Source of the DNA: Methylorubrum extorquens
Lineage (GTDB): Bacteria > Pseudomonadota > Alphaproteobacteria > Rhizobiales > Beijerinckiaceae
Length of the DNA stretch: 64,000 nucleotides
Reading direction: 5' to 3'
NCBI RefSeq assembly: GCF_024169925.1
Contig: NZ_JALJXF010000001.1
Location: forward strand, 936,001-1,000,000
This document shows, one piece after another, positions 45,318 to 60,277 of this stretch. A program made the translations under genes and the position numbers. Position 1 is the first letter of the stretch. Each line of letters begins with the position of its first letter. The notes under the pieces are model-generated. The model was not told the origin of the DNA, did no database searches, and was given only the letters and a program-made list of their open reading frames with translations.

Positions 45318-45329
45318 AAACAGGCTCAC
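45318..45329 (-). pseudogene. umuD start remnant, locus A
   Basis: GTG AGC CTG TTT on the minus strand, identical to the first four codons of the umuD at 59883 and placed exactly 21 bases from the LexA-type box, as there. After these codons the sequence is unrelated and reaches a stop after eight more codons. The preceding 200 bases (45116 to 45317) hold only a short CPDCNGTGKV zinc-finger-like piece broken by a stop. Confidence 0.65.
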
Positions 45330-45350
45330 GCGAAGCCGTCTTTCGTGCTA

Positions 45351-45365
45351 GAACGAAAATAGAAC
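45351..45365. promoter_or_regulatory. LexA-type SOS box, locus A
   Basis: GAAC-GAAAATA-GAAC, the reverse complement of the alphaproteobacterial GTTC-N7-GTTC LexA operator. It lies between the umuD remnant and the 84-residue gene at 45464. Confidence 0.82.
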
Positions 45366-45463
45366 AAGCGGGCGGCCGATTTCCGGCTCGGGCTTCCGAG
45401 ATCACGACGGCTTGCCTGACGTGTGAATGGCGGCCGGCTCGGCCCTGGTGCGGGAGAACGACG

Positions 45464-45718
45464 GTGACGATGCGGACGACCTACCTCGTGCAGACCTTTA
45501 TTTTGAAGCGCAAACGCCTGTGCCCCGGCGACCAGCAGGTGTCGCCGACGGTGAACGGGGCGCTGAAGCGGGCCGAAGCGATGGCCACGCGGCTGCCGGG
45601 CACCGCCGCGATCCAGATCGTGGCCGACGACGAAACAGGGGAATTGGAAAGCGCGACGATTCTCGGCCGGTTCGGCGAGGTTCCGGAAGACTTCGCCGAG
45701 ACGCTGCAGGCCGCCTGA
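45464..45718 (+). CDS. SOS-linked small protein, copy A
   Basis: 84 residues (GTG start at 45464, or ATG at 45470): TMRTTYLVQTFILKRKRLCP, GDQQVSPTVNGALKRAEAMA, then LPGTAAIQIVADDETGELES and ATILGRFGEVPEDFAETLQA. Paralogues lie at 54672 and 60023. A beta-helix-beta layout is likely, with a basic KRKR in strand one. The gene follows a LexA-type box by about 100 bases, so SOS induction is expected. Family and function not recognised. A 91-residue gene follows after 27 bases. Confidence 0.8.
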   Translation: MTMRTTYLVQTFILKRKRLCPGDQQVSPTVNGALKRAEAMATRLPGTAAIQIVADDETGELESATILGRFGEVPEDFAETLQAA

Positions 45719-45745
45719 CGAAAGCATCGAGAAAAGAGGCATCAC

Positions 45746-46021
45746 ATGGCTTTCAAGCCGAAATCGGCCGCGGAGACGAAAGCGCGCGACCTGGGCCTGG
45801 CGCTTGCGCGGATCGCTGAGAACGAGGGCATGCCGGCCCATGTCGGGGTGGATGCCCTGCGCCGGTCGAGCCCGCGCCTGACGCCGCTGGCGATCGGGCA
45901 GATGGTGCGCAAGCACCGCGACATTCTCGAAGGGACGCTGATCGAGCGGGGGCTGACACTCGTGGATTATGCCGACCAGGGACCGGGACGCGGCATGGAG
46001 TTCGAGGTCGCGAGCGCCTGA
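45746..46021 (+). CDS. Hypothetical protein behind SOS-linked copy A
   Basis: 91 residues (MAFKPKSAAETKARDLGLAL). Helix-rich: ARIAENEGMPAHVGVDALRR and LTPLAIGQMVRKHRDILEGT could form a helix-turn-helix-like fold, but no family was recognised. AGAGGCATCAC precedes the ATG. Probably co-transcribed with the 84-residue gene, so perhaps also SOS-regulated. Confidence 0.65.
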   Translation: MAFKPKSAAETKARDLGLALARIAENEGMPAHVGVDALRRSSPRLTPLAIGQMVRKHRDILEGTLIERGLTLVDYADQGPGRGMEFEVASA

Positions 46022-46210
46022 GGCGCATGAGTCGTGAGGCAACGCGTGCCATTCGGGTTCACGTGGCACGTTCTGTGATGACGCTTGCCGAGGTCTTGGT
46101 GAGGGCGGCGCCCGCGGGGGGGCACGCGACCATTGGGGCGGGTGCCGTCTAGGAACGATCAGGGCGCGCAGGTCTTGTCCCGGCACTTCGAGAGCCTGAG
46201 GAGGCCCGCC

Positions 46211-46585
46211 GTGGACGATGATCGTGTTTGGTCGTTCGAAAAGAGCCTTTGGACCGGTGACCCGGGTCATTACCGCGAACTTGTCGATGACGAGTGCCTG
46301 ATGGCGCTGCCGCAGCCGCCTTACGTGCTCGGTGGCGCTCAAGCGATCGAAGCGGTCGCAGACACGCCCCGTTGGTCCGACGTCGCGTTCGACGATGGCC
46401 GGATTGCGCGTCCCCAAGAAGGCCTGATCGTCATCGCCTATTCTGTGAAAGCCTCACGGGGTGAAGAGACCTACGAGGCCCATTGCACCTCGACCTACCG
46501 GCGGCTGTCGCACGAGGAATGGCGGGTCGTCCAGCACCAGCAGACCCCGCGCATTCTCGCCCCCGTCGTTGACGAGGAACGCTGA
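46211..46585 (+). CDS. NTF2-like (DUF4440) protein
   Basis: 124 residues from a GTG at 46211 with GAGG upstream; an in-frame start at 46133 would add 26 residues. The pattern VWSFEKSLWTGDPGHYRELV, DDECLMALPQPPYVLGGAQA, YEAHCTSTYRRLSHEEWRVV and QHQQTP matches the DUF4440/SnoaL-like cone fold. Such proteins are small enzymes or ligand-binding proteins; role unknown. Confidence 0.7.
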   Translation: MDDDRVWSFEKSLWTGDPGHYRELVDDECLMALPQPPYVLGGAQAIEAVADTPRWSDVAFDDGRIARPQEGLIVIAYSVKASRGEETYEAHCTSTYRRLSHEEWRVVQHQQTPRILAPVVDEER

Positions 46586-46699
46586 CGCGGCAGTCGCAGG
46601 GGACCCACTCGGGTTGAACGGCCGAGTGCGGATCGACCTGACCGGCTGGCTTTGGACCGGGCTGATTGAGAGGATCAGCCGGGACTGAAAGTTTCGGTC

Positions 46700-46845
46700 A
46701 TGCGGCGAGGTCAAAAGACGAGTGCGGAGCAGGTGGTGCTCGAACTGCGCCAGATCGAGGTGCAGACAGCCCAGGCCAAGAGCTTGGCGCTGGCGTGCAA
46801 GAAGGCGGAGATCTCCGCGCAGAGTTGTTACCGGTGGCGCGAGCG
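46700..46845 (+). pseudogene. IS3-family transposase OrfA fragment
   Basis: MRRGQKTSAEQVVLELRQIE, then QTAQAKSLALACKKAEISAQ and SCYRWRER match the helix-turn-helix N-terminus of IS3-family OrfA. After YRWR the similarity stops abruptly, so only about 48 codons remain. The following 220 bases contain no gene. Confidence 0.8.
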
Positions 46846-47064
46846 GACTTTAGTGACATCATCGCGTCGACGCGCTCGATCAAAACCTCGCTTCCACCTG
46901 CCAGCGCACTTAGCCTATGCCCTCTGCAACGCTACATGATTGGCAAAGTCGAGCTGATGTTCAGTCCCGTTATGTGGTGATACGTCGGAGACCGCATGCA
47001 AGGCTGCACTATGGGATAGGTTCTCCACGGCAGCGCCCGCACGACGGAGCGGCAGTGTTGAAGG

Positions 47065-47277
47065 TCAAGCGGTGAGTGGCCGCCATGGCGTACGATCGCG
47101 GACGATAGCGTTGAGCGTCACCAAGAGCTTTCGCATCACCGCAACAAGGGCAACCTTCCTCGGTCGGCCGCGCTGGGTGAGCCGCTCATAGAACGGCCGG
47201 AAGGGAGAGCCTCGCCGGATCGCGATCAGCGCAGCCATGTACAGCACACCCCGAACAGATGTTCGCCCGCCTGCAAT
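47065..47277 (-). pseudogene. IS110-family transposase C-terminal fragment
   Basis: GGRTSVRGVLYMAALIAIRR, then GSPFRPFYERLTQRGRPRKV, ALVAVMRKLLVTLNAIVRD and PWR is the conserved C-terminal end of IS110/IS1111 transposases. The frame starts abruptly at the junction with the IS630-type remnant near 47277. Confidence 0.82.
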
Positions 47278-48279
47278 GGATCGAGTCGCCGTTGCTCTCG
47301 GCGATGAAGCGTTTGATGGCCGCCTGCACCTCGATCAGCGATCCGAATACGCCGCGCCGCAGGCGGCGTTTTGCGAGCTTGGCGAAGAAGCCCTCGACGG
47401 CGTTGAGCCACGAGGCTGAAGTCGGAGTGAACTGGAAGGTCCAGCGCGGGTGGCGGTCGAGCCAAGCACGGACCTTCGGGTGTTTGTGAACGGCGTAGTT
47501 GTCCAGGATCGCGTGGACGATTTTGCCCGCCGGAACCGCAGCCTCGACAGCGTTGAGGAAGCGGATGAACTCCTGATGCCGGTGGCGCTGCATGCAGCGG
47601 CCGATCACCTTGCCCTCTAGGACGTCCAGGGCGGCAAACAGGGTCGTCGTGCCGTGGCGCTTGTAGTCGTGGGTTGCGCGTCGTCGGCTGGCCTGGCTTC
47701 ATCGGCAGCGGGTCCGACGTGCGGGCGAGCGCCTGAATTTGGCTCTTCTCGTAGACCGAGAGCACGACGGCATGGGCGGGCGGGTCGACGTAGAGCCCGA
47801 CGACATCGCGCAGTTTGGCGGCGAAGGCCGGGTCGGTGGAGAGCTTGAACTGCTGGACCCGATGCGGCTGCAGCCCATGCCCACGCCAGATCCGTTGCAC
47901 TGACGAGACGCTGATGGCCGCGACCTTGCTCATAGCGGCGGCCGTCCAATGCGTGGTCTCGCTGGGCGGATCTTCCTGCGTCAGAGCCACCACGCGCGTC
48001 GCCACCTCCGGCCCCAGCGCCGGGATGCGCACCAGCCGCGTCTTATCCTGCAGGAGCCCTACGACGCCGTCCTGCGCGAAGTCGGTCCTGCCAGCGCCAG
48101 ACCGCCGTCTTTGAGACGCCCGCCTCACGCATGATCGCGTGCGTCCCGAGCCCATCGGCGCTTAGCAACAGGATGCGAGCCTGCCAGACGTGCTTCTGTG
48201 GCGTGTTTCGATCCGCGACCAGGGCCTCCAACCGAAGGCGATCCGCGGCGGAGAGCTTGAAAGAGATGCCACTGCGCAT
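47278..48279 (-). pseudogene. IS630-family transposase, frameshifted and truncated
   Basis: Read on the minus strand: MRSGISFKLSAADRLRLEAL to SKTAVWRWQDRLR in one frame; DGVVGLLQDKTRLVRIPALG to DPLPMKPGQPTTRN in a second; and HDYKRHGTTTLFAALDVLEG to ILDNYAVHKHPKVRAWLDRH, then SWLNAVEGFFAKLAKRRL in a third. Frame changes lie near 48075 and 47680. The DDE catalytic parts are recognisable (LDNYAVHK, NAVEGFF), but the C-terminus is lost where the IS110 fragment begins. Confidence 0.82.
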
Positions 48280-48349
48280 CCTGCGAGACTCGCAGGGGGG
48301 ACTGAAACTGAAACCCCGAACGGACTCAAATGTCAGGGTTCAACACTAA

Positions 48350-49190
48350 GGCCTGTTGTCACTTGAGCCAATCGAGCGTTTCGGCGAGGCAGAGGACAGC
48401 GGCGAAGCTGACGGCGGTCTTCTCGTAGCGGGTGGCGACGGCGCGCCACTCCTTGAGACACGCCCATAACCGCTCGACGATGATGCGGTTGTTGTAGGCC
48501 CAGTCCGGGCAGGCGAGTTGCTCTTCGTTGCGTTTGGTCGGGATCGCGGGACGCGCACCGGTGGTCCAGATGTGCTCGCGGAAGCCGTGGCTGGAATAGC
48601 CACGGTCGCCCACGCCCCACTTGGGCACGCCGGGCAATTGGTCGAGGAGCGGAATGGCGTGAGGCAGTTCGTGGGCCTGCCCCGGAGCGATGCGGAAGGC
48701 GACGGTGCGGCCTCTCCCGTCGGCGATCACGCAGGCCTTGGTGCCATAGCCGCCACGAGAGCGGCCAAGTGCTTCACGAGCGTCTCGCTCGGCCGCAGAT
48801 CCCCCCTTTTTGCTGCACCCGCCGCCTTCTGGTGAGCCCGAACGTTGCTGCCGTCGAGGAAGACCATGCCCAGCGCGACGCCGCGCTCCTGCACGCGATC
48901 GAGCAGCCGCTCCCACACCCCGGCGCGTGCCCGGCGGATGAAGATCTGTGCCGCCTGCCACCAAGGACCCAACTCCTCGGGGATGGCGCGCTACTTCGCC
49001 CCGTTCTGATGTCGCCAGAGGATCGCAGAGATCGTGCGCCGAAGCTCCTCGGGCGGTGTCTTGGCCTTCGGGCGAGAGGCCTCGATCAGCGGCTGTAACT
49101 CACCCCGCTGCGCGTCTGACAGCATCACGTCTCCTCACTGGAAAACGAGAAAACGCCAAAATTCGAAATCCGTTCAGGCGACGACAGGCC
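48350..49190 (-). mobile_element. IS5-family (IS427-like) insertion sequence
   Basis: About 841 bases bounded by related inverted ends: GGCCTGTTGTCACTTGAGCC at 48350 and, inverted, GGCCTGTCGTCGCCTGAACG at 49190. The flanks read CTAA and CTAG, consistent with insertion at a YTAR-type target. It contains one transposase in two frames. Confidence 0.8.
48359..49125 (-). pseudogene. IS5-family transposase with internal stop and slippery site
   Basis: OrfA starts at 49125 (MLSDAQRGELQPLIEASRPK) and hits a TAG at 48993, where relatives have Trp (GAKWRAIPEEL). Beyond it GPWWQAAQIFIRRARAGVWE, VFLDGSNVRAHQKAAGAAK continue in frame. At 48801 to 48811 the minus strand reads AAAAAGGGGGG, and the rest (GYGTKACVIADGRGRTVAFR, YNNRIIVERLWACLKEWRAV) is in the -1 frame, as in programmed frameshifting of this group. 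The TAG probably makes it inactive. Confidence 0.8.
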
Positions 49191-49194
49191 CTAG

Positions 49195-49638
49195 TGCGCA
49201 GGCCGCGGGGCCGTCATTGGTGGCTGGATCACGAACAAGCAGGATCCGGTTCAATTCCTCAGCCGGAAGGTGCTGACGCCCGTAGTTCGGCCGGGCGACG
49301 ACGTGAAGATCGAGCCCGATAACTACCGCGTCCTCCGCTGCCCGCAGACGACGTATCGCATCATCAACAAGCCGGTCGGCAAGCGTAGCGTGCAGACCGA
49401 CGACAAGCCGGCCGCGTTCGGCAAGCTCGGGCGGGACAAGTACATCGGCAGCGTGCCGACGCCGTCCTCGACGCCGTTCGGCAAGGCGACGATCTACAGC
49501 TACACGGTGCGGATGTGTAACCCGTGGGAATGGATGTTTCCGGTGGAGTACGCCGAGTCGTGGCTCGATGATTTCGAGTTCGGCTCAGAGACACGGCGCA
49601 TCCCCCCGGAGCAGGCGAAGAACTCGCTTACGCGTTAG
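49195..49638 (+). pseudogene. 5'-truncated hypothetical gene next to the IS
   Basis: The open frame begins within four bases of the IS5-type end: AGRGAVIGGWITNKQDPVQF, then LSRKVLTPVVRPGDDVKIEP and PWEWMFPVEYAESWLDDFEF. GAVIGGWITN looks like the end of a membrane helix, so the N-terminus was removed at the IS junction. A GTG at 49270 could start a shorter product. No family recognised. Confidence 0.55.
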
Positions 49639-50024
49639 CCACTATCGAGCGCATGCGGCCCTGGATCAACAATCGGTGACTACGCGCGGCGTCCGTAGCG
49701 GCGGGGCGGCGAGTTGATCGCTACTCGCTATTTTGGCAACGGAATATGATCGTACGCGGTCAGGTCGCAAGATCGGCTATAGTCTTAGATCCAAATAATA
49801 TTGGATGGAAATTTTGAGGTATATCTCGTCGCGCCAATTCGTTGCTTCGACGACACACTCCGGCTCAAATCGCCTGTATACTGATCGGCGGCCGAAAATT
49901 TCCCTCAAATGTTGTTTGATCGAAGTTGCCACCGAAGAAGATTTCCTAGGCTGGCCGCACGAAGACGTGCCTCGCGCCCGCCGATGATGTGATGGAAACG
50001 CGCTAACGGAAAGTGGAGGCAGCA
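49639..50024. other. AT-richer intergenic region
   Basis: About 390 bases, clearly richer in A and T than the chromosome part, leading into the Hint gene. Short open frames on both strands (for example 49777 to 50031 minus) are not supported by motif or composition. Confidence 0.45.
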
Positions 50025-50999
50025 ATGGCACTTCCGATTGTTTTCAATAACCAGACCTATAACACTAACTTTTTGTCTCAGGACAATGATGGGGTTCAGA
50101 ATAACGTTTTCGAAAATGAGGACAATAATCCGCAACCATACACCCTCAATGGCATCGTCAACGCTGTCGGCGACCCTGTTGTATTTACCTCTTCCAATGG
50201 GTCGGATCAATTCACAGCTTACGCAACAAATCTCGATAATCCAAATCAAATCGTTTTCAGCGACAATGCCGATGGATCAGGCATTGCAATCATTGCCTCG
50301 AATACGCAGCTTGTAGAGGGGGGCACTGAGACATTTTCTGAGACGAGCCTGGGTGATTACATACCTGTTTGCTTCACGACCGGCACGCAGATCCGAACGG
50401 TACGCGGTGAGATTGCGGTCGAGCATCTGCAGGCGGGTGACATAGCGATGACTGCGACCAGCACCGCGCGACCTATCGCATGGATTGGATCTCGCGAGAT
50501 CGTGGCCGATAGCGGCTCGCTTCCCTTCAACCAGCAGCCGGTGCGCGTGCGCGCTGGCGCCTTCGGCGGCGGCCTTCCGGTTCGCGATCTCATCCTCTCG
50601 CCTGGTCACCCGGTGCTCGTCGGCGCGGATGCCGGCAACGAGGGCGGCGTGCTCGTGCCTGTGATGTGCCTGATCAACGGCACCACGATCACCCGCGAGC
50701 TGGTGAGCAGCGTCACCTACTGGCACGTCGAACTCGACGGCCACGACATCCTGCTCGCCGAGGGGCTTCCGGCGGAAAGCTACATCGACGGTGGCGATCG
50801 GGCCTTCTTCACCGAAGGCTTGGACCATGCCCTGCACAACCCGGACTTCGTCGCTCCGGGTTGGAACGGTCGTTGCCGGCCGGTGGTGGTGGATGGACCG
50901 CTCGTCGAGGCTGAGCGGCAGCGGCTCGACGCCGTGTTTGCCGGCTCGCTGAACGCGGACTGCTCTTGGTGCGCGGACGAAGCTTTCCTCGCTGCATAG
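50025..50999 (+). CDS. Hint-domain (hedgehog/intein type) protein
   Basis: 324 residues from the ATG at 50025 with GGAGGCAGCA upstream. Residues 1 to about 112 are Asn/Asp-rich and AT-rich in DNA (VFENEDNNPQPYTLNGIVNA). From Cys116 a Hint_2 domain follows: CFTTGTQIRTVRGEIAVEHL, DLILSPGHPVLVGAD and TYWHVELDGHDILLAEGLPA, ESYID. Bacterial Hint proteins of this kind are often surface or secreted and may self-cleave at the Cys. The last residues hold further cysteines (ADCSWCADEAFL). Confidence 0.85.
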   Translation: MALPIVFNNQTYNTNFLSQDNDGVQNNVFENEDNNPQPYTLNGIVNAVGDPVVFTSSNGSDQFTAYATNLDNPNQIVFSDNADGSGIAIIASNTQLVEGGTETFSETSLGDYIPVCFTTGTQIRTVRGEIAVEHLQAGDIAMTATSTARPIAWIGSREIVADSGSLPFNQQPVRVRAGAFGGGLPVRDLILSPGHPVLVGADAGNEGGVLVPVMCLINGTTITRELVSSVTYWHVELDGHDILLAEGLPAESYIDGGDRAFFTEGLDHALHNPDFVAPGWNGRCRPVVVDGPLVEAERQRLDAVFAGSLNADCSWCADEAFLAA

Positions 51000-51090
51000 G
51001 AATGCTTGTCAGTCCGAACGGTAGCAGCATGGCCCGCGCTGCTTGGACGATGGCGCTTCGTGCCTGCCCGACATCGCAGCGCCTACCCAG

Positions 51091-51120
51091 CCCCGCCGGC
51101 ACTCGCCGCGCGGGGTTTTT
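51091..51120 (+). terminator. Intrinsic terminator after the Hint gene
   Basis: CCCCGCCGGCACTCGCCGCG and CGGGG form a hairpin followed by TTTTT, about 90 bases after the Hint-gene stop. Confidence 0.75.
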
Positions 51121-51297
51121 CGTGCGCGTGGCGGACGGGGGCGCTGGGGATCGGCGGGCCGCCGCCCTGGTGAAAGGCGTCTGGCGGCCAGACAGTCTCG
51201 GCACATCGAAACAGGATGTGCCATCAGATGCTATGCAATATATGATTGTCTGTGCAGTCTCGTTCCGTCGGAGGATCCCCGCCGCTGGAGGCGCACC

Positions 51298-51545
51298 ATG
51301 GTCACCACCAATCCGACAGCGAACGTGGAAAGCGATCCCCCGACTGATCGGTGTGAGAGCGCCCTTGCTGAGGCGATCGACGGTCTCGAGACCATCCGCG
51401 ATGAAGGGCCCGCGGTCGATCCGGCCTATCCGACTCACGGAGGGATTGAGGCGCACGAAGCATGGGGTTTCGACTCTGCTCGCACGAGCGCGCGGAGACC
51501 GCTCGGGGCACCCTGGCGAACGTAGAGGCGATCATGAAGGAGTGA
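51298..51545 (+). pseudogene. Frameshifted paralogue of the 82-residue protein at 62470
   Basis: MVTTNPTANVESDPPTDRCE to EAHEAWGFDSA matches the protein at 62470. Then one base is missing relative to that copy (CTCTGCTCGCAC against CTCGGCCTCGCAC, near 51477), and the frame changes to an unrelated tail ending at 51525. In the restored frame the end SHERAETARGTLANVEAIMK is still present up to 51545, so the mutation may be recent. Confidence 0.75.
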
Positions 51546-51642
51546 TCGGCGTGGGGGCGCTGATCTGGACTATCCGCCCGCCACAGCCCGTCTGCCCTAT
51601 ACCCGCCCTCCAGCGGGCTCTTCCATCTCGATACCCACCTTG

Positions 51643-51673
51643 CCCCGCCCGGCTCAGCCGCTGCGGGGTTTTT
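51643..51673 (+). terminator. Intrinsic terminator at the end of duplication copy 1
   Basis: CCCCGC at 51643 pairs with GCGGGG at 51663, followed by TTTTT. Confidence 0.75.
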
Positions 51674-51993
51674 CATACTCCAAGCTGAACGAGCGGCCGT
51701 GCGTGATCCGACCTCACGATTGGTCCGCTGACGAGCTTCGTGCGGGAGACGCCAGAGGAAGTGGTGCGGGCGCCGTAGTTAGAGTGCGAAGGATCGTGAT
51801 CCGGAATTATCGAGGATTGCATATGAACCATTGCGGACCATGGGAGGGCAAGTTCCCGGGCTGGCGAGAAGGCAATCGCTAACGTCCAAGTTGAGTGGGG
51901 TTCCGCCCGTCCACTTCCGCTCGTAGATGGGGCGGAAGCGGACGTTCGACGCAAAATCGACTTACTGCGCACACCAGCGGAGATGGGGATGGG
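51674..51993. other. Intergenic region without supported gene
   Basis: About 320 bases between the duplication and the chemoreceptor stop. An open frame at 51640 to 51882 shows no motif and starts inside the terminator. Confidence 0.45.
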
Positions 51994-54048
51994 TCAGGCT
52001 GCCCGGACCGTGGCGAGGAAGCGGGTGACCTCGGCGCCGAGATGCTCGGATTGCCGGGACAACTCGGAGGCCGCCGACAGAACCTGAGTGGCCGCAGCCC
52101 CCGTCTCCTCCGACGCCTGCGCTACGCCCACGATGTTGCCCGTCACCTCGTTGGCGCCCGCCGAGGCCTGCGCGACGTTGCGCACGATCTCCTGGGTTGC
52201 CGCGCCCTGCTGCTCGACCGCCGCCGCGATCGAAGTCGCTACGCTGTCGATCTGGCGGATCCGCCCGGTGATCCCGCCGATCGCCGTCACCGCCTGCTCG
52301 GTCACCCCTTGAACCTCGCCGATCTGGCGCGCGATCTCCTCGGTCGCCTTGGCGGTCTGCTCGGCCAGCGCCTTGACCTCTGTCGCCACCACCGCGAAGC
52401 CCCGCCCTGCAGCCCCTGCGCGCGCCGCCTCGATCGTGGCATTGAGCGCCAAGAGATTGGTTTGGCCGGCAATTCCCGAGATCATTCCGACCATGTCGCC
52501 GATCCGGGCGGCGTTCTGACTAAGCGCCTGGACGAGATGCGCGGTCTGGTCAGCCTCGCCCACCGCCGCTTGGGCGAGATGGGCCGAGCCGGTCACCTGC
52601 CGGCCGATTTCCTGCACCGACGAGCCCAGTTCCTCGGCGGCCGCGGCGACCGTGTTGACATTGGTTGACGCCTCCTCGGCGGCGGCCGCCACGCTCGTGG
52701 ACTGCGCGGCCGTCTCCTGGGCGGTGGCGGTCATCTGCTGCGCGGTGGCCTGGAGCTCGGTGGCGGAGGACGAGACCATGCCGACGATGCCGCCGACGGC
52801 GCGCTCGAAGCCGTCTGCAAGCTCGATCATGGTGCGGCGGCGTTCGGCGGCGGCGGCTTCATCGGCGCGGCGCTTGACCTCGGCCTCCTCGATGGCCTTG
52901 CGGGCGACCATGGCTTTGATGGCCTCGACCGCCTTGCCGACGGCGCCGATCTCGTCGCCGCGGGCGGCCTCCCGGATTTCGGCGTCGACCTCGCCGCGCG
53001 CCATCCGCTGCAGCACGCCGACGAGACTGTGGAGCGGGCGGGTCAGGAGGATCTGGGCGGAGACGAAGATCACACTCAGGACGACGAGGAGGATGACAAG
53101 ACCGGCCAGCGCCGTCTCGAGGACGCGGGCCATGATCGGCTGCGAGAACGCCGCGTCCGGCACGTCGAGGACGAGGGCCCAGGTCGTGTTCATCCCGGGC
53201 GCCGTGAAGGGATAGACCAGGCGCCGCGCGCGGTCCGTGCCGTCGCTCAGGATCCGCATCCGGCCGTCACCGAGGGCTGCCTTGATCTCCGACGCACCGA
53301 CGTCAGTATAGTCCTTCATCATCAGATCGGCCTGGGGCGGAACGATCCACCGGCCGGCCTGCGAGAGCATCATCACGCGACCGCCCTCGAAGGGACGCAG
53401 CGCCGCGAGCATCTCGGACATCTTCTGCAGGCTGATGTCGACGCCCGCCACGCCGATCGTCGCGCGGTGAATCGTCAGCGGCACGCTGATCGAGGTCACG
53501 ACGTCGCCTTTGGTTGTCACGTAGGGCTCGATGAGGAGGCTTTTCCCAGACTTGATGGCCGCCTCGTACCATTGCTTGGTCGGATCGACAGTGAAGGTCG
53601 ATTGCTCCAGCTTCCCCGAGCCGCTCTTCGTCCAGTACGGTGTGAAAAGGCCCTTGTCGTTGTTCGAAGCCGTTCCGCCGAGCACCTTGCCGAGGCGGCC
53701 ATCGGCGGTGTCTGAGATCCAGGCACCGAACAGATTGGGGTAGCCTTCGAGGACGGCCCTAGTCGCCGCGACGGCATCTTCCCTCCGGGCTGTGCCGCCA
53801 TCGGCAAAGCCCGAGAGCGCGGCCGCCATGGAGATACCGGCCGACATCGCCTCGGTGATCTGGGCCGTGACCTGCCCGGTCGTGCTCGTCGCCTTCTCGC
53901 TCGCGAGCGCCAGGATTTCTCGATCGGTGCGCTCGGCAGCCTTCCATCCAGCCAAACCGGTGAACCCGATGAGGGTTAGGCTGACGGCAGATCCTGCGAT
54001 CACCACGAGTTTTTTTGATATGCTTCCGGCTATAATATTTGAAAACAC
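51994..54048 (-). CDS. Methyl-accepting chemotaxis protein with Cache sensor domain
   Basis: 684 residues. Membrane helix about 13 to 35; periplasmic double-Cache domain (NLFGAWISDTADGRLG, QWYEAAIKSGKSLLIEPYVT, GVAGVDISLQKMSEML) to about residue 300; second helix about 310 to 335 (LVILLVVLSVIFVSAQILL); HAMP (RPLHSLVGVLQRMARGEVDA); and the signalling hairpin tip MVGMISGIAGQTNLLALNAT, IEAARAGAAGRGFAVVATEV. Residues in the coiled coil are Ala/Glu-rich, as needed for methylation sites. The ligand is unknown; Cache domains often sense small organic molecules. No che genes are near. Confidence 0.93.
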   Translation of the reverse strand: MFSNIIAGSISKKLVVIAGSAVSLTLIGFTGLAGWKAAERTDREILALASEKATSTTGQVTAQITEAMSAGISMAAALSGFADGGTARREDAVAATRAVLEGYPNLFGAWISDTADGRLGKVLGGTASNNDKGLFTPYWTKSGSGKLEQSTFTVDPTKQWYEAAIKSGKSLLIEPYVTTKGDVVTSISVPLTIHRATIGVAGVDISLQKMSEMLAALRPFEGGRVMMLSQAGRWIVPPQADLMMKDYTDVGASEIKAALGDGRMRILSDGTDRARRLVYPFTAPGMNTTWALVLDVPDAAFSQPIMARVLETALAGLVILLVVLSVIFVSAQILLTRPLHSLVGVLQRMARGEVDAEIREAARGDEIGAVGKAVEAIKAMVARKAIEEAEVKRRADEAAAAERRRTMIELADGFERAVGGIVGMVSSSATELQATAQQMTATAQETAAQSTSVAAAAEEASTNVNTVAAAAEELGSSVQEIGRQVTGSAHLAQAAVGEADQTAHLVQALSQNAARIGDMVGMISGIAGQTNLLALNATIEAARAGAAGRGFAVVATEVKALAEQTAKATEEIARQIGEVQGVTEQAVTAIGGITGRIRQIDSVATSIAAAVEQQGAATQEIVRNVAQASAGANEVTGNIVGVAQASEETGAAATQVLSAASELSRQSEHLGAEVTRFLATVRAA

Positions 54049-54238
54049 TACCCCACTCCGAGAAAATAATTCGCAAGTGGTATTTTGGCAGTTCGAATTA
54101 ATTTCATGTTAAAATATACTTGGACTGGGATGATATAAAATTCTCCTAGCGATTTTTTTCGAACACAAATGGTCGCTTTTAGACAAGCGCTCAGGCTTTG
54201 GTTTGTCCTCTGCGTGCGGTCATTGAGGGGCAAGCCGC

Positions 54239-54433
54239 TTAGTACCTGACCGCCTCGAGTATCCGCTTCCGCACCTTGGCGAGGCGGTCGTCGTCGTTGG
54301 CGCCTGTCACCATAGCCTCACGCCCGACGGCCTCGTAGATCTCCCGCACGGCATCCTCGTCCAGGCCGAGGCCTTGCGCGAACCGGAGCAAGCCGCGCAT
54401 CTCGGCGGCGGATCGTTCGGTGGTCGCGCTCAT
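54239..54433 (-). CDS. Small hypothetical helical protein
   Basis: 64 residues from the ATG at 54433 (MSATTERSAAEMRGLLRFAQ). Predicted all-helical (LGLDEDAVREIYEAVGREAM, DDRLAKVRKRILEAVRY). It lies five bases after the stop of the 40-codon frame at 54438, so the two could be co-translated downstream of SOS-linked copy B. The 190 bases between it and the chemoreceptor gene hold no gene. Confidence 0.5.
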   Translation of the reverse strand: MSATTERSAAEMRGLLRFAQGLGLDEDAVREIYEAVGREAMVTGANDDDRLAKVRKRILEAVRY

Positions 54434-54437
54434 CGGC

Positions 54438-54560
54438 CTAGCGGACCGCGATCTCGCGGGCGCCGACGACGACCTCCGCGGGCTCGGTGGGGTGCCGCTC
54501 GACGGTCCGGTTGATCCCGTAGGGCTGTGGGCGGTCCCAAGCCGCATCGCTTCCGGTCAT
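54438..54560 (-). CDS. Very short open frame between SOS-linked copy B and the 64-residue gene
   Basis: 40 residues (MTGSDAAWDRPQPYGINRTV, ERHPTEPAEVVVGAREIAVR). Supported only by its position, an ATG, and tight spacing to the next gene; it may be a real small protein or a leader. Confidence 0.4.
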   Translation of the reverse strand: MTGSDAAWDRPQPYGINRTVERHPTEPAEVVVGAREIAVR

Positions 54561-54671
54561 GAGCGCGCGGGCCAGGAGGTCCGACAGGCCCTTGCCGCCG
54601 TCGCTGATGGCTATGGCGCTGCCGTTATCGACTTTCGACGATGGTCCGCATGGTTACGCCGTCTGCAGGCT

Positions 54672-54908
54672 CTAGGCAAAATCGTCCGGCACCTCGCCAA
54701 ACTGGCCGAGGATCGTCGCGCTCTCGAATTCGCCCGTCTCGTCATCGGCCACGATCTGCAGGACGGTCGTCCCCAGCATCCGCTCGGCCATCGCCTCGGC
54801 CCGCTTCAGCGCCCGGCTGCAGGACGCCGACACCTGCCGATCGCCAGGGATGAGCCGCTTCCGCTTCACCGCAAAGGTCTGCACGACGAAAGTCGTCCGC
54901 ATCGTCAT
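54672..54908 (-). CDS. SOS-linked small protein, copy B (truncated end)
   Basis: 78 residues from the ATG at 54908 (MTMRTTFVVQTFAVKRKRLI), the paralogue of copies A and C. It ends at a TAG where the others have Glu (DDFAESLQ); the lost tail SLQTA and a TAA follow in frame, so a single GAG to TAG change removed the last six residues. The body, including GDRQVSASCSRALKRAEAMA and QIVADDETGEFESATILGQF, is intact. Preceded by a degenerate LexA-type box. Confidence 0.75.
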   Translation of the reverse strand: MTMRTTFVVQTFAVKRKRLIPGDRQVSASCSRALKRAEAMAERMLGTTVLQIVADDETGEFESATILGQFGEVPDDFA

Positions 54909-55010
54909 AGCTGATACCCTCACCAAGCCCAGATTGTGCGTGGTCCACGTTTTCCATAGGGCGGCAAGGTCACGTTTATGCTCACGTTGACCCGGAACCG
55001 TCGGGCTGCT

Positions 55011-55025
55011 TATTCTTTTTTCGTT
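55011..55025. promoter_or_regulatory. Degenerate LexA-type box, locus B
   Basis: Minus strand GAAC-GAAAAAA-GAAT: one half-site has C changed to T. About 100 bases upstream of copy B; the DNA between them is almost identical to locus C (for example CCCGACGGTTCCGGGTCAAC and GTGAGCATAAACGTGACC). Confidence 0.7.
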
Positions 55026-55046
55026 CCATAACGTGAGAGGGTACGG

Positions 55047-55058
55047 CGTGAGCCTGTT
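55047..55058 (+). pseudogene. umuD start remnant, locus B
   Basis: GTG AGC CTG TTT, the first four umuD codons, 21 bases from the box. The next bases (TGATCGGCCCCCACGGGG) are the end of the IS3-family element, which has replaced the rest of umuDC. Confidence 0.75.
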
Positions 55059-55885
55059 TTGATCGGCCCCCACGGGGTGGTCCAAGTTCAAAGTTAGTGC
55101 AGGGTCGGCCTCTGATCCACGGTTAGCTTGGCCGGCGGAGCCGGTCGGGAGAGGCGGGCACGAACACCTCCGGGGCTGGCGGCCGGTAGCCGAGTGAAGC
55201 GTGCGGACGCACGCCGTTGTCCGTATCGTCGCCAACTCTCGATCACGATCTGCGCCTCCTCGAGCGTGTAGAAGATCTCGCCGTTCAAGAACTCGTCTCG
55301 TAGCCGTGCGTTGAAGCTTTCGACGCAACCGTTCTCCCATGGCGATCCGGGTGCGATGCAGGCGGTCTTCGCGCCGACGCCGGTGATCCAGGCCTGTACC
55401 GACGTGGCCATGAACTCCGGACCGTTGTCCGAGCGGATGTGGCCCGGCACACCGCGTAGGATGAGCAGGTCGGACAGCACGTCGATGACGTCCGCCGCCT
55501 TGAGTTTGCGCGCCACCCGGATCGCCAGGCACTCACGCGTGAACGCATCGACCACGTTGAGCATCCGGAACTTGCGCCCGTCATGGGTGCGAGCCTCGAC
55601 GAAGTCGTAGGACCAGACGTGATCGCGATGCTCTGCTCGCAGTCGCAGGCAGGAGCCATCCCCGTCCCAGATGCGGTCACGCTGGGGCTGCTTGGCCGGG
55701 ACCTTCAGGCCTTCCTGCCGCCAGATCCGCTCCACGCGCTTGTCGTTGACCAGCCAACCGGCGGCCTTCAGCAATGCGCTGATCTTCCGATAGCGGTAGC
55801 GGCCATACCGCGCCGCCAGCTCGACGAGATCGGCTGTCAGGGCGGCCTCGTCGTCTCTGCCCCGCGGCGCCTTGCGCAGCCGCTG
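55059..55885 (-). mobile_element. IS3-family element, truncated, OrfB only
   Basis: The element end TGATCGGCCCCCACGGGGTG lies at 55059. OrfB is read on the minus strand: RGRDDEAALTADLVELAARY, YDFVEARTHDGRKF (first Asp), GVPGHIRSDNGPEFMA (second Asp), GSPWENGCVESFNARLRDEF (Glu). Near 55226 one base change of frame separates WRRY from the normal end DNGVRPHASLGYRPP. The other end of the element is missing, cut at about 55885 by the integrase fragment. Confidence 0.82.
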
Positions 55886-56641
55886 TTTCACACCTGGACC
55901 GAGGAAGAAGTCGCGCGCTTCGAGGCGCATTGGCCCGTCGGCACCCGCGAGCGCCTTGCGCTCGACATCCTGCTCTACACGGGGCTGCGCCGGGGCGACG
56001 CGGCGCGTCTCGGCCGACCGCATGTCCGCAACGGCGTTGTCCGCATTCTTACGGAAAAGACCAGCCAGGAGGTAACGATTCGTATCCTGCCGCCGCTGGC
56101 TGCTTCGATTGCCGCGAGCCCGACGGGGGATCTGACCTTCATCGCGGGCGAACGTGGCCGGCCGATGACCAAGGAGAGCTTCGGCAAATGGTTCAGGGAC
56201 GCGTGCGTCGCTGCCGGCGCGCCGGGCCAAGCGCACGGCCTGCGCAAGGCGGGGGCACGCCGCGCGGCCGAGAGCGGGGCGGCGGAAGCCGAATTGAACG
56301 CATGGTTCGGGTGGGCGGACGGCAGCCGGGAGAGCGCGACTTATGTGCGCGGCGCCAACCGGGCGAATCTCGCGGAGCGGATCGCCGGGCGCTGGAACGA
56401 GGACGCTATCACCGCACATTCCGACCCAATGTGGGGCTCGGAGCTAAAAGTGCAACATTCTCAAGATTTAAGAAGGTTGTTGGCTCCCCGAGCAGGACTC
56501 GAACCTGCGACAAAGCGATTAACAGTCGGGGTGATGCCATTGATTTCATTGGACGACGTTACCGCGGGGGAGGGCTTTCGCTCTGACGAAACCTGCCCCG
56601 CGGTGACCCATTGCCTCGCTTCCCTAAGGAGGGCGGGATAG
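55886..56641 (+). pseudogene. Tyrosine integrase, N-terminally truncated
   Basis: FHTWTEEEVARFEAHWPVGT, LLYTGLRRGDAARLGRPHVR (catalytic Arg), VRILTEKTSQEVTIRILPPL (Lys region), GQAHGLRKAGARRAAESGAA (HxLR) and WADGSRESATYVRGANRANL (Tyr) make up the catalytic domain of a phage-type integrase. The N-terminal arm-binding domain is lost at the IS3 junction. Its 3' end reads into the tRNA-Asn fragment, as usual for tRNA-associated integrases. Confidence 0.85.
56481..56528 (-). other. tRNA-Asn 3' fragment, probable attachment site
   Basis: On the minus strand CGACTGTTAATCGCTTTGTC, GCAGGTTCGAGTCCTGC and TCGGGGAGCCA is the 3' part of a tRNA-Asn: anticodon loop CTGTTAA with GTT, T arm GGTTCGAGTCC and the acceptor end with encoded CCA. 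The anticodon stem pairs for three bases and then fails, so the 5' half is absent. This is a typical integrase crossover region. Confidence 0.85.
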
Positions 56642-56650
56642 GGTCGGAAA

Positions 56651-56917
56651 ATGGCTGATCCCAACCCCACCGTCGGCGAACTCTTCAAGGCCAAGGCCGT
56701 CACCGACGACCAAGTCAGCGTCGCGGTCGCGGCCTACTTCGCGAACCCCGATGCCAGCGCGTACCCGATCGCGGACGGCTACAGCCTCGACCTCGCTGCG
56801 GCTGTCGCTGGCCATAGCTGGGCGAGCCAAGTCGTCGCCAACCCTGAGAGTAGCCCCGGCTTGAAGCGTGCCGCCACCCGCACCGCTATCCTGCTGGCGC
56901 GGGCTAGCAAGAAATGA
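56651..56917 (+). CDS. Tandem 88-residue paralogue, first copy
   Basis: 88 residues: ADPNPTVGELFKAKAVTDDQ, VSVAVAAYFANPDASAYPIA, DGYSLDLAAAVAGHSWASQV, then SSPGLKRAATRTAILLARAS. Similar over the full length to the next gene (shared AY..NPD..AYPIA.GYS.DL.AAV..H.W, LKR, TAILLAR). Probably a small helical protein. No family recognised. Immediately beyond the attachment site. Confidence 0.7.
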   Translation: MADPNPTVGELFKAKAVTDDQVSVAVAAYFANPDASAYPIADGYSLDLAAAVAGHSWASQVVANPESSPGLKRAATRTAILLARASKK

Positions 56918-56996
56918 ACACTGATCGTCTCACGGGTGGAACTCGACTGGCCTGGACGTCTTAGGTGCTGGCGCATCTCTCCAGGCCGATCGAACC

Positions 56997-57263
56997 ATGA
57001 ACATTGATCTGCCTACAGTTGATACGCTGCGCAAACACAGGATTGTTCTCGCAGAACAGATAAATAGCGCGGTTGAGGCCTACTTAGATAACCCAGACAT
57101 TACCGCGTATCCCATCGCTACAGGTTACAGCATCGACCTCAAAGCAGCTGTCAGAAACCACGAATGGATCTGGAAGATCGCTCGTGATCCTGCCGCAAGC
57201 GCGAGGTTGAAGCGGGGCACAATTTGGACCGCGATCCTGCTGGCACGGGTGCAAAAGGCGTAA
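56997..57263 (+). CDS. Tandem 88-residue paralogue, second copy
   Basis: 88 residues: MNIDLPTVDTLRKHRIVLAE, QINSAVEAYLDNPDITAYPI, ATGYSIDLKAAVRNHEWIWK, then LKRGTIWTAILLARVQKA. Paralogue of the preceding gene, 79 bases downstream. Its DNA is notably richer in A and T than copy one, so the pair diverged by separate histories or one was acquired separately. Confidence 0.7.
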   Translation: MNIDLPTVDTLRKHRIVLAEQINSAVEAYLDNPDITAYPIATGYSIDLKAAVRNHEWIWKIARDPAASARLKRGTIWTAILLARVQKA

Positions 57264-57337
57264 GCCCGATCGGCCGGTAAGCTTGAGGCAACCGGACACC
57301 CCTATGCCGTCGGCCCCGCCATCAGCCGGCAGTCGTA

Positions 57338-57733
57338 ATGCTCCTTCCCGAACTCGCGCCCGATCATCTGCCGCCTGAGGCGGCCGAGTGGCGGAAAGCC
57401 TTCGGCGCCCTGCGCCCTACCTCCTCGCCGTGCCGCTACCTGAACCCCACTGTCTGGACGAACATTCACGAGGCCTGCACCGACTTCATCGAGCGTTTCG
57501 GCGCCGACGCCGTGCGCCTCGGCTGGACGGCACCGCAGCTCTTCGGCGTCCATCCCCAGCACGGAACGTTGCGCGTGGATTGGTGCGGGGTGATGGTGAC
57601 GGGAGGGCACAAGGCGATCGGCATCGAGCCAAATCGGGTCTTGTTCGGCAACGTGAGCGGCTACCGGGATACACCCGGTGCGCCGGTCGGGATCCCGATC
57701 TGGGAGTTTGCGGCCCGTCGCGAAGGGAAGTAA
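57338..57733 (+). CDS. Hypothetical accessory protein
   Basis: 131 residues (MLLPELAPDHLPPEAAEWRK). Features FIERFGADAVRLGWTAPQLF, GVHPQHGTLRVDWCGVMVTG and VLFGNVSGYRDTPGAPVGIP. I believe related proteins recur in alphaproteobacterial islands and phage-like regions, but no function can be named. Confidence 0.65.
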   Translation: MLLPELAPDHLPPEAAEWRKAFGALRPTSSPCRYLNPTVWTNIHEACTDFIERFGADAVRLGWTAPQLFGVHPQHGTLRVDWCGVMVTGGHKAIGIEPNRVLFGNVSGYRDTPGAPVGIPIWEFAARREGK

Positions 57734-57830
57734 CCGAAGCCTTTGGCGACGCGCTAGCCGCGCTCCTCGCGCACAGTTCGATGCGCGCTGCAGCACCTCA
57801 GCGCCCACGCCAGCGTCCCCACATTTGTAA

Positions 57831-58025
57831 ATGAATTATATGTTCAAAATGCCAATGCTGCGCCCTGTACCATGCTGCAGGGCGGGTGTTGTGGTCGGGC
57901 TGTTGCTAATGGTCGCGTTCGCATCGGACGCAACGATGATGGCTTCGAGCGATCGACATGCCAGTCTCGTATGGGCAGGTCTCGCCGCGATTGGCATTGC
58001 AGTTTTCACGCTGGGCTTCGAGTAA
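57831..58025 (+). CDS. Small membrane protein
   Basis: 64 residues with two hydrophobic segments (VVVGLLLMVAFASDATMMAS and LVWAGLAAIGIAVFTLGFE). The ATG at 57831 has no clear ribosome binding site. Plausible two-helix inner membrane peptide; function unknown. Confidence 0.4.
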   Translation: MNYMFKMPMLRPVPCCRAGVVVGLLLMVAFASDATMMASSDRHASLVWAGLAAIGIAVFTLGFE

Positions 58026-58099
58026 TGGGTGCTGCGCGTTTGCCCCGCATCATCGGCCGCGGTGATGCCATCTCCGCCATCAGTCAGGAAACACCCTGA

Positions 58100-59431
58100 T
58101 CAGGCTTGCGCTACCGGAAGCTCCTCGACCTGTGTCGTGTAGCGCGGCGTGCGCATCTCGAACTTCGTCGTCCAGGCCCGCCGCTGCTGCGCCAACCCGG
58201 CCCGTGCCGGCACAACGGTGCCGCGGCCGAAACGGGCGTTGCAGGCGTCCATCGCGCCCATGAGCCGTGTCGAGCGCTCACGATCGAGCCGGCCGATCAG
58301 CGCCCGTTGCGAGGCGGCGAGCGGCACGAGATCGACGGTCACCACGCCCGCCTTCGAGTAGCGCCAGGGCGGGCTGCCCTGCTCGCGCCAAGTGCGGGCC
58401 ACGCCGTGCAGCGCCGCGGGGATCAGCGCCAGCGTGTCGTTGGTCGCCTCCGGCAGCGTCACCACCGTCGAGACCGAGCGCATGGGTTCGCCGCGGTCGT
58501 GCTCGCTCGTGTGATAGAAGACCGTGATGTGGTCGGTGCCGAGGCCTTCGCGCCGCAGCTTTTCGCCGAGCCGTGTCGCATGGGCGGCCACCGCCTGCTC
58601 CAATTCGGCCCGCTCCGTCACCCGGCCTGAGAACGAGCGGGTTACGGCGCAGCCCTTCCGCCGGGCCGGCACCAGTTCGAGCCCGAGGCAGGACACGCCG
58701 CGCAACTCGTGGATCATGCGCTCGCCGACCACGGTCAGAGCCTTGCGCACCGGCCGCGGGTCGATGTCGCGCAGGTCCGCTACGGTGTCGATGCCCATCG
58801 CCTCGAGCTTCGGCAGCGAGGCGCGACCGACGCCCCACAGCTCGCCGACATGGATCCGGCAGAGCCAGTGATCGTAGGCCGTCGGCTCGGTCAGATCGCA
58901 TACCCCGTCGAGTTCGGGCACCGTCTTGGCGATGTGGTTGGCGAGCTTGGCGAGCGTCTTGGTCGGGCCGATGCCGACGCAGGTTGGGATGCCGGTCCAG
59001 GCTCGCACGGTGGCGCGGATATCGCGGGCGAGCGCAACGCGATCCCGGCGGACGAAGCCTGTCAGGTCGAGGAAGCTCTCGTCGATCGAGTAGACCTCCA
59101 CGTCGGGCGTGGCGTCGCGGTAGATCGCGTTGATGCGCGCTGACATGTCTCCGTAGAGGGTATAATTTGACGAGAACACGCGCACGCCCTGCGTCTCGCA
59201 GAGCTGACGGATCATGAAGTAGGGCGCGCCCATCTTGATCCCGAGCGCTTTGGCCTCGGCGGTGCGGGCTATCGCACATCCATCATTATTGCTCAGCACG
59301 ATCACCGGCACGCGGGCGAGCTTGGCGTCGAACACGCGCTCGCACGAGCAGTAGAAGCTGTTGCCGTCGATGAGGGCGAGGGCTCGCCCGCCGCCGATCC
59401 GATCCCGCAGGCGCGCCTCGGCGCCGCTCAT
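58100..59431 (-). CDS. umuC: DNA polymerase V catalytic subunit
   Basis: 443 residues from the ATG at 59431, overlapping the umuD stop (ATGA). Y-family polymerase: [20 protein letters not shown] (first acidic site), [36 protein letters not shown] (second acidic site), [18 protein letters not shown] (helix-hairpin-helix area), and the UmuC C-terminal part ([14 protein letters not shown]). Error-prone replication past lesions as UmuD'2C. With dinB at 32281 the window has two Y-family polymerases. Confidence 0.95.
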
Positions 59432-59883
59432 CGACCCTGTCCAGCGCGCGCGACGTGCCAGCGGATGGTGAAGCGCACCACGCCCCAGACATCGACTTCG
59501 GCCAGTTCCTCCAGCGCGTAGACCGGCAGGTCGGCGTTGTCGAAGGAGAGCCGAGCCGTGTTGCCCTCGACCACCATGCGCTTGATCGACATCTCGCCAT
59601 CGACAGCCGCTACGACGACGCTGCCGTGCGCGGGCTTGAGGCTGCGATCGACGCAGGCGAGATCCCCATCGAAGATCCCGGCATCGCGCATCGAATCGCC
59701 CGCGATGCGCCAAAGGAAGGTGGCGGGCGGGTTCGGTACGAGCCAGCGCGGCAACTCCAGGGCGTTCTCGACGAAGTCGTCGGCCGGCGACGGGAAGCCC
59801 GCGCAAAGCGACGGCCCCATCAGCGGTACGCGAACGGTGGAGAAGCCTTGGTCCGGTAGTTCGTTGACCCGAAACAGGCTCAC
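59428..59883 (-). CDS. umuD: DNA polymerase V protease subunit
   Basis: 151 residues from a GTG at 59883 ([14 protein letters not shown]). S24 LexA-like self-cleaving protease: cleavage region [13 protein letters not shown], catalytic Ser in [15 protein letters not shown] and Lys in [18 protein letters not shown]. Under SOS, RecA helps it cut to UmuD', which activates UmuC. The gene starts 21 bases from a LexA-type box shared with the divergent 84-residue gene. Confidence 0.93.
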
Positions 59884-59904
59884 GCCGTGCCCTCTCCCGT
59901 GATA

Positions 59905-59919
59905 GAACGAAAAGAGAAC
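59905..59919. promoter_or_regulatory. LexA-type SOS box, locus C
   Basis: GAAC-GAAAAGA-GAAC between divergent umuDC and the 84-residue gene. Its position, 21 bases from the umuD start, suggests it overlaps the umuD promoter. Confidence 0.9.
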
Positions 59920-60022
59920 AAGCAGCCCGACGGTTCCGGGTCAACGTGAGCATAAACGTGACCGTGCCGCCCTGTGGAAAACGTGGACAACGCCCGATCG
60001 GGGCTTGGTGAGGGTATCAGCG

Positions 60023-60277
60023 ATGACGATGCGGACGACCTTCCTGGTGCAGACCTTCGTGCTGAAGCGGAAGCGGCTCATCCCCGGCGATAGGCAGGTC
60101 TCAACGACGAGCAGTGCGGCGCTGAAGCGAGCCGAGGCGATGGCAGCACGGATGCCAGGGACGGCCGCCCTGCAGATCGTGGCCGATGACGAGACGGGCG
60201 AATTAGAGAGCGCCACGATCCTCGGCCAGTACGGCGAGGTGCCAGATGATTTTGCTGAGAGCCTGCAGGCGGCTTGA
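60023..60277 (+). CDS. SOS-linked small protein, copy C
   Basis: 84 residues from the ATG at 60023 (MTMRTTFLVQTFVLKRKRLI), the best-placed member of the three-copy family: divergent from an intact umuDC across a perfect LexA-type box. The rest reads PGDRQVSTTSSAALKRAEAM, PGTAALQIVADDETGELES and DDFAESLQAA. No catalytic motif is visible; the basic first strand and acidic DDETGE loop are conserved in all copies. Cytoplasmic, function unknown, presumably SOS-induced. Confidence 0.85.
   Translation: MTMRTTFLVQTFVLKRKRLIPGDRQVSTTSSAALKRAEAMAARMPGTAALQIVADDETGELESATILGQYGEVPDDFAESLQAA

Follow-up and report, generated by a model that had tools for sequence, protein, structure and literature searches.

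The window analysed here, a stretch of 64,000 nucleotides (nt) of the Methylorubrum extorquens genome, carries three paralogous small genes, each lying across a LexA-type box (GAAC-N7-GAAC or a one-mismatch form of it) from umuD or from the vestige of a umuD start. Judged by its sequence, the small protein represents a family that is real, conserved, larger than the initial annotation of this DNA had supposed and not recognised by the databases searched. Its boxed members are very probably repressed by LexA and controlled by the SOS response, and the function of the protein quite probably does not depend on DNA polymerase V (Pol V, encoded by umuDC); that both statements hold jointly is likely.

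The case for SOS control begins with the distant members of the family. Scanning the 400 nt upstream of 110 distinct distant genes revealed an exact box in 60 cases (37 as GAACN7GAAC and 23 as GTTCN7GTTC), whereas a downstream control of the same length gave a single boxed gene out of 110. Upstream controls returned no gene with spacers N5, N6 or N8, two with N9, two with CAAGN7CAAG and one with GACAN7GACA. At the rate of the box in the genome, the binomial probability of the observed number is about 7e-88, a figure that ignores relatedness between the genes. When the limit is widened to 450 nt, the boxed genes number 61 of the 110 and come from 11 families, the window's own among them, of the order to which Methylobacteriaceae belong; one family (f36) contributes 22 of these 61, but with 11 families represented the boxes are very unlikely to have arisen by chance. 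The distant set was drawn from 80 regions among the stronger of the matches listed and from other loci; it comprises also five genes from outside the order (all unboxed), five from the window's genus and some fragments, and was thinned for identical stretches only.

Closer relatives were collected by a scan of named Methylobacteriaceae genomes, which returned 80 loci; three without a gene start and one cut upstream (L007) were set aside, and three with damaged or cut genes (L076, L080 and L082) were entered as boxed. An exact box is present at 39 of the 76 assessable loci, either ‘near’ (40–150 nt upstream, 20 loci) or ‘far’ (330–370 nt, 19 loci), and one more locus is apparently boxed under the wider 450-nt criterion. 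Half of the genomes with an assessable locus (26 of 52) have a boxed copy. The initial annotation had staked its reading on a link of homologues elsewhere to LexA boxes or to umuDC, and such a link is found in both sets, although it is not universal.

That these boxes could be chance matches, or sites of some regulator other than LexA, has to be considered given that they were found by pattern alone, and the count in the window is by itself unremarkable: GAAC-N7-GAAC occurs three times, against a mean of 1.52 in shuffled sequences, and 16 of 100 shuffles reach three. The whole genome (5.26 Mb) contains 138 occurrences of the pattern and 79 of its reversed form; the former amounts to about 0.01 per 400 nt, and at that rate exact boxes at matching distance from two of three paralogues are not expected by chance. 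Moreover, enrichment in the distant genes is specific to the N7 spacing and to the upstream side, the genome's own lexA has an exact GAACN7GAAC upstream, and GTTCN7GTTC, the same box read on the other strand, is the published Caulobacter LexA motif (PMC12700426). An origin outside LexA control is accordingly regarded as highly improbable.

In the window, the sequence and the list of open reading frames (ORFs) bear out the layout described for the three divergent units, namely a umuD start codon, 21 nt, the box, 98–103 nt and the small gene, and the promoter regions thus contain a box of the host LexA type that is exact at copies 1 and 2 and has one mismatch at copy 3. The features of the units, with positions in the window, are as follows.

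59905..59919, plus strand: LexA-type box GAACGAAAAGAGAAC of the 60-kb unit, common to umuDC (minus strand) and the small gene (plus strand)
60023..60277, plus strand: small gene copy 1 of the 60-kb unit, 84 codons, 103 nt past the box
59428..59883, minus strand: umuD of the 60-kb unit, Peptidase S24, PRK10276 UmuD subfamily; GTG start at 59883, 21 nt from box GAACGAAAAGAGAAC
58100..59431, minus strand: umuC of the 60-kb unit, Y-family polymerase; start assigned from the frame of UmuC, overlapping the end of umuD; placed by translation and tblastn position
45351..45365, plus strand: LexA-type box GAACGAAAATAGAAC of the umuDC-less 45-kb unit
45464..45718, plus strand: small gene copy 2 of the 45-kb unit, 84 codons, GTG start, 98 nt past the box
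45318..45329, minus strand: vestigial umuD start GTGAGCCTGTTT of the 45-kb unit; GTG at 45329, 21 nt from box GAACGAAAATAGAAC
55012..55026, minus strand: degenerate LexA-type box GAACGAAAAAAGAAT of the 55-kb unit, one mismatch
54672..54908, minus strand: small gene copy 3 of the 55-kb unit, 78 codons followed by an in-frame TAG at codon 79, 103 nt past the box
55048..55059, plus strand: initial four codons of a umuD copy in the 55-kb unit, GTG at 55048, 21 nt from the box; sequence of insertion sequence (IS) type follows directly
55094..55900, minus strand: part of a transposase (rve, HTH_21) beyond the umuD vestige of the 55-kb unit, presumably IS3-like

A protein search of the genome found exactly three copies of the small gene. 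The 60-kb unit alone has umuDC, four umuD codons remaining, by eye, at each of the other two, so that the reported loss of umuDC with retention of the small gene at two units stands. The GAAT reported in place of the second GAAC of the 55-kb box is also there, but the treatment of the 55-kb copy as a 78-codon variant of equal standing does not hold, since it arose by duplication of the 60-kb unit and is now truncated and degenerating. Its nearest relative in the family tree is the 60-kb copy (grouped with support 91/91), and of the 27 residues that alignment A1 shows as invariant, three are changed in it. The altered box, the in-frame TAG and the changes at invariant residues together indicate that this copy is decaying, while the other two look maintained. 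Around the 55-kb copy, window positions 55592–56535 are probably a prophage remnant: they contain a tyrosine integrase fragment in frame with IS sequence and then, at about 56483–56535, what is presumably, by eye, the partial 3' end of a tRNA-Asn on the minus strand; ARAGORN detected no tRNA in the window.

The 45-kb copy has had a different fate. In the family tree it clusters with seven other genes (support 100/95), this group of eight spans several named species, and a ninth locus cut by a contig end (L080) resembles the group. Although all these loci lack umuDC, the eight fixed bases of the box are identical at nine of nine, against an average identity of 48% in the far upstream flank. The ratio of nonsynonymous to synonymous substitution rates (dN/dS) has a median of 0.058 in this group (28 pairs from the eight complete genes) vs 0.10–0.19 in three other groups, and by this measure the protein is under strong purifying selection without umuDC. 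The possibility that all umuDC-less copies are decaying remnants therefore applies to the 55-kb copy and is ruled out for the 45-kb copy. The remnant of the umuD start, GGCTCAC, is kept in the group at a near-constant distance from the box and may by now have become part of the small gene's promoter.

The initial annotation had offered two roles for the small protein, that of an SOS-induced partner of Pol V and that of an independent SOS function. At the level of sequence, the second is upheld by the excess of upstream boxes, by the nine umuDC-less loci with a conserved box and by the low dN/dS, while the first fails as a general role. Of 397 genomes of the order, 25 contain UmuC as recognised by its DUF4113 domain, 100 contain the small family and 15 contain both; hence 85 of the 100 family-bearing genomes have no such UmuC, nor have 41 of the 45 genomes carrying a boxed gene of the distant set, with the limit that UmuC forms lacking DUF4113 would escape detection. 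When the genomes of the window's own family (f1) are left aside, UmuC is found in 6 of the 90 that carry the small family and in 9 of the 287 that do not. On these co-occurrence counts, partnership with Pol V as the general function is rejected.

The narrower proposal of a Pol V accessory subunit, which would bind UmuD' or UmuC and tune mutasome assembly as proposed for YolD-type subunits, draws on genomes related to the window. Across the shared box, umuD is found at 25 of the 39 boxed Methylobacteriaceae loci (8 near and 17 far) and umuC alone at two more, both far, leaving neither at 12, all near, and a umuD match was obtained at one of the 61 boxed distant loci; umuD is also close to 27 of 50 copies located in predicted viral contigs, and UmuC and the small family occur together in eight of nine same-genus genomes of the order sample. 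On the other hand, the ninth (G389) has UmuC without the family, the umuDC-less group is strongly constrained, and the order-wide counts point the same way. The accessory subunit is therefore considered improbable, although there may be a lineage-specific link with umuDC in Methylobacteriaceae, where the two often adjoin. The DUF4113 match of the umuC in the 60-kb unit lies at G000:C1:994109-994267. A second UmuC (DUF4113) match is present in the genome at G000:C1:1732824-1732979, with an exact GAACN7GAAC inside it (1732925-1732939).

The description of the family as unrecognised withstood the searches made. None of the three window copies matches a Pfam, NCBIfam or PHROGs family, and among 18 diverse members there were only stray weak matches of one member each (best E-values 0.006 in Pfam, 0.033 in NCBIfam and 0.0079 in PHROGs). 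The family profile gave matches at chance level only against PDB sequences (best E-value 0.071), and copy 1 had no match at an E-value of 0.01 in 50,697 named phage records. No text naming the family was found in the open-access literature, as covered mostly by titles and the starts of abstracts, which does not imply that the family is unpublished. The closest named relatives are from Methylorubrum, and relatives with 36–38% identity are found on named Rhizobium plasmids. A profile of the Methylobacteriaceae members matched 47 of the 397 genomes of the order and a broader profile 100, in 36 of 141 genera; in a sample of 289 genomes drawn from the class, seven matched, two of them being the window's own genome and one of the same genus. 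To judge from these comparisons, the small gene is a member of a so far unrecognised family of about 75–90 residues in the order containing Methylobacteriaceae. By eye, the family alignment hints at a strand, a helix and two further strands.

Circuits of this type are, by analogy, already known. In the reports on DdrR of Acinetobacter (PMC7273328, PMC11332147), the protein is likewise small (78 and 81 residues in two strains), is encoded divergently from a umuD homologue across one operator, is induced by damage, and acts as a corepressor with UmuDAb, altering UmuDAb switching. The same layout occurs here at copy 1 and at the 25 boxed Methylobacteriaceae loci with umuD across the box, and not always; the comparison is one of layout, not of sequence. 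DdrR is described there as confined to Acinetobacter, which has no LexA, and as always standing beside umuDAb, whereas the host of the present family has lexA and most of the distant members are not beside umuD. YolD/YqjX (PF08863) proteins (PMC6511836, PMC12926913) are small SOS-linked proteins whose genes, in some lineages, adjoin that of an error-prone polymerase, and are proposed as small subunits of Gram-positive Y-family polymerases. They differ in that no PF08863 match was found in Pfam scans of the three window copies and the 18 family members at E-values up to 1, and in that most genomes with the present family show no UmuC. Stand-alone ImuB-C, of about 80 residues, is tied to several SOS repair operons and is reported to have a highly conserved C-terminal tryptophan (PMC3765255); the present family has no invariant or nearly invariant tryptophan. 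Membership in either family is thus rejected. A damage-controlled small gene beside umuD (DdrR) and a small SOS protein beside a polymerase gene (YolD) nevertheless provide precedents for the kind of circuit proposed.

The reading favoured here would run as follows. Many members, including two of the three in the window, have a LexA-type box at their promoter and are most likely repressed by LexA; upon DNA damage, RecA would be activated, LexA would cleave itself and the small gene would be derepressed, together with umuDC where the box is common to both. The small protein could then bind and modulate RecA-activated autopeptidases (UmuD, repressors of the helix-turn-helix (HTH)-S24 type and perhaps LexA) or RecA itself, and such modulation would set the speed of switching, whether of the SOS state or of a resident prophage. 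Copies that arose by duplication or are carried by prophages would serve for dosage or be specific to their element. The modulator role is proposed because the recurrent neighbours are RecA-activated autopeptidases, UmuD and HTH-S24 repressors, and by comparison with the action of DdrR on UmuDAb; it is a tentative idea that is more probably wrong than right. In a broader and more speculative form, the family would modulate RecA-dependent autopeptidases throughout the order, having spread by duplication and on prophages, with each element having its own damage-switch setting.

Several observations weigh against this reading. Within the upstream windows used, 37 of the 76 assessable Methylobacteriaceae loci and 50 of the 110 distant genes have no exact box, and whole subclades are unboxed, so LexA control is not family-wide. 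The A2 profile was built once some boxes were known and could favour SOS-linked subfamilies. Upstream of recA there is only a one-mismatch match to the box, which is weak by itself. As regards the proposed targets, no S24 match was found at 53 of the 61 boxed distant loci within the stretch examined, and since SOS regions and prophages often contain S24 and umuD genes anyway, adjacency is weak evidence of contact.

The neighbours themselves were scanned in two sets, 67 of 97 ORFs beside boxed distant genes and 62 of 99 from viral contigs (13 loci), after near duplicates and the family's own genes had been dropped. In the first set, Peptidase_S24 is the commonest family (7 of 67), and helix-turn-helix matches occur in several ORFs. 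HTH-S24 genes placed downstream and convergent were found at 8 of 61 boxed vs 0 of 49 unboxed distant loci, three of the eight having supplied the queries. Some lineages have DNA enzymes as neighbours, DUF2161 (PD-(D/E)XK) and Vsr once each among the 67 ORFs, and a basic KRKRL stretch near the N-terminus is conserved in the Methylobacteriaceae members; both features fit a protein that acts directly on DNA or the replisome in the damage response without touching autopeptidases, for example by binding nucleic acids or delaying division. Since distant members retain the basic stretch only in part, and the family has no significant match, nucleic-acid-binding or other, this direct effector is possible but rather doubtful.

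Fifty copies are located in predicted viral contigs (IMG/VR). A box lies within 500 nt in 46 of them and within 366 nt in 44, and three of the four without a box have less than 345 nt of upstream sequence. Endolysin, portal, repressor and UmuD-like matches, as well as three SRAP genes, are among the 62 neighbouring ORFs of this set. These findings, and the integrase fragment and transposase around the 55-kb copy, would be expected if the small gene were a passenger of shared promoters and prophages, that is, mobile cargo for lysis, immunity or exclusion, with a box for expression at prophage induction and no role in host repair. However, the 45-kb group is conserved over several named species, some boxed distant loci adjoin ordinary chromosomal genes (chorismate-binding and enoyl-CoA hydratase genes), and the phage records contained no match to copy 1. 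In addition, provirus edges in IMG/VR are predictions, and the viral and Methylobacteriaceae sets overlap, as indicated by contigs of equal length (L276/L004 and L286/L046). A passenger role is therefore held to be unlikely. A known phage protein comparable to the proposed modulator is gp7 of phage GIL01, which reportedly interacts with the host LexA and changes its DNA binding and auto-cleavage (PMC4551915).

The SOS response is among the best studied of bacterial circuits, yet none of the curated families tried matches this one, which lies behind LexA-type boxes in 11 families of one order and is carried by bacteria of the Methylobacterium and Rhizobium types, among others. The family offers an inexpensive handle on SOS roles beyond polymerases and repair enzymes in bacteria that mostly show no UmuC, and the provirus copies together with the HTH-S24 adjacency make it possible to test for a link between prophage switching and the damage response of the host. 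The same boxes are also used by another small family without a name, described below.

At the 37 unboxed Methylobacteriaceae loci, no umuD match was obtained within the stretch examined per locus, and no GTTCN7GTTC was present within 400 nt of the gene (0 of 37), so that an opposite orientation of the box is rejected as the explanation. At 13 of these loci (e.g. Methylobacterium L022, L023 and L030), a TTTCGTGxTA-like motif is located within 120 nt of the gene. It resembles TTTCGTGCTAGAAC in the region of the 45-kb box, which would fit retention of the promoter without the LexA half-sites.

At the ‘far’ loci, a second reading frame is inserted between the box and the small gene, ending 18 to 5 nt before the start of the latter (once 9 nt inside it), and in 19 of 19 cases (e.g. 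L004, L019, L042, L059, L063 and L069) it matches DUF6894 (PF21834). This frame is probably co-transcribed with the small gene as, apparently, the first gene of a LexA-boxed operon, and that position is a possible functional hint for DUF6894, a term not found in the open-access literature searched. DUF6894 is similar in size to the small family, but there is no profile relationship between them (hhalign probability 0.1% in two comparisons), and membership in DUF6894 is rejected.

The second unnamed small family, with a motif of about AIAxCGGDxRxxxKALIxAN, shares the LexA-type box at 23 loci and occurs downstream with weak scores at two more; its model was seeded from 17 of the 23. It had no Pfam match at an E-value of 0.001 in 18 members scanned, and it was not found in the window or at the Methylobacteriaceae loci at 1e-4. 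Its arrangement relative to the box is as follows.

Same strand, between the box and the small gene: L134-L137, L139, L141, L189, L190, L192, L194-L197, L199, L201, L206, L208, L210 and L221
Divergent across the box: L138, L191, L193 and L235

SRAP was rejected as a special partner, since SRAP-like genes, seen at 17 of 236 loci, accompany members with a box as well as members without one, and none of five SRAP genes checked has an exact or one-mismatch box just upstream. Some unboxed distant members are preceded by an SRAP gene in the same orientation (L259 and L261, at 68 nt, and also L258 and L249), with no LexA-type box immediately before the SRAP gene.

In the window, two adjacent genes of 88 residues each (56651-56917 and 56997-57263) are, by eye, apparent paralogues; in Pfam, nothing matched the first at an E-value of 0.01, and the second had a sub-threshold match only. 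Finally, the boxed small gene has as a close neighbour, at the loci below, a gene for a small protein whose CxxC-type cysteine pairs look, by eye, like those of a zinc ribbon; 16 matches to it were obtained over all loci searched.

Opposite strand to the small gene: L122, L185, L058, L305-L307, L309, L310, L312, L313, L315 and L316

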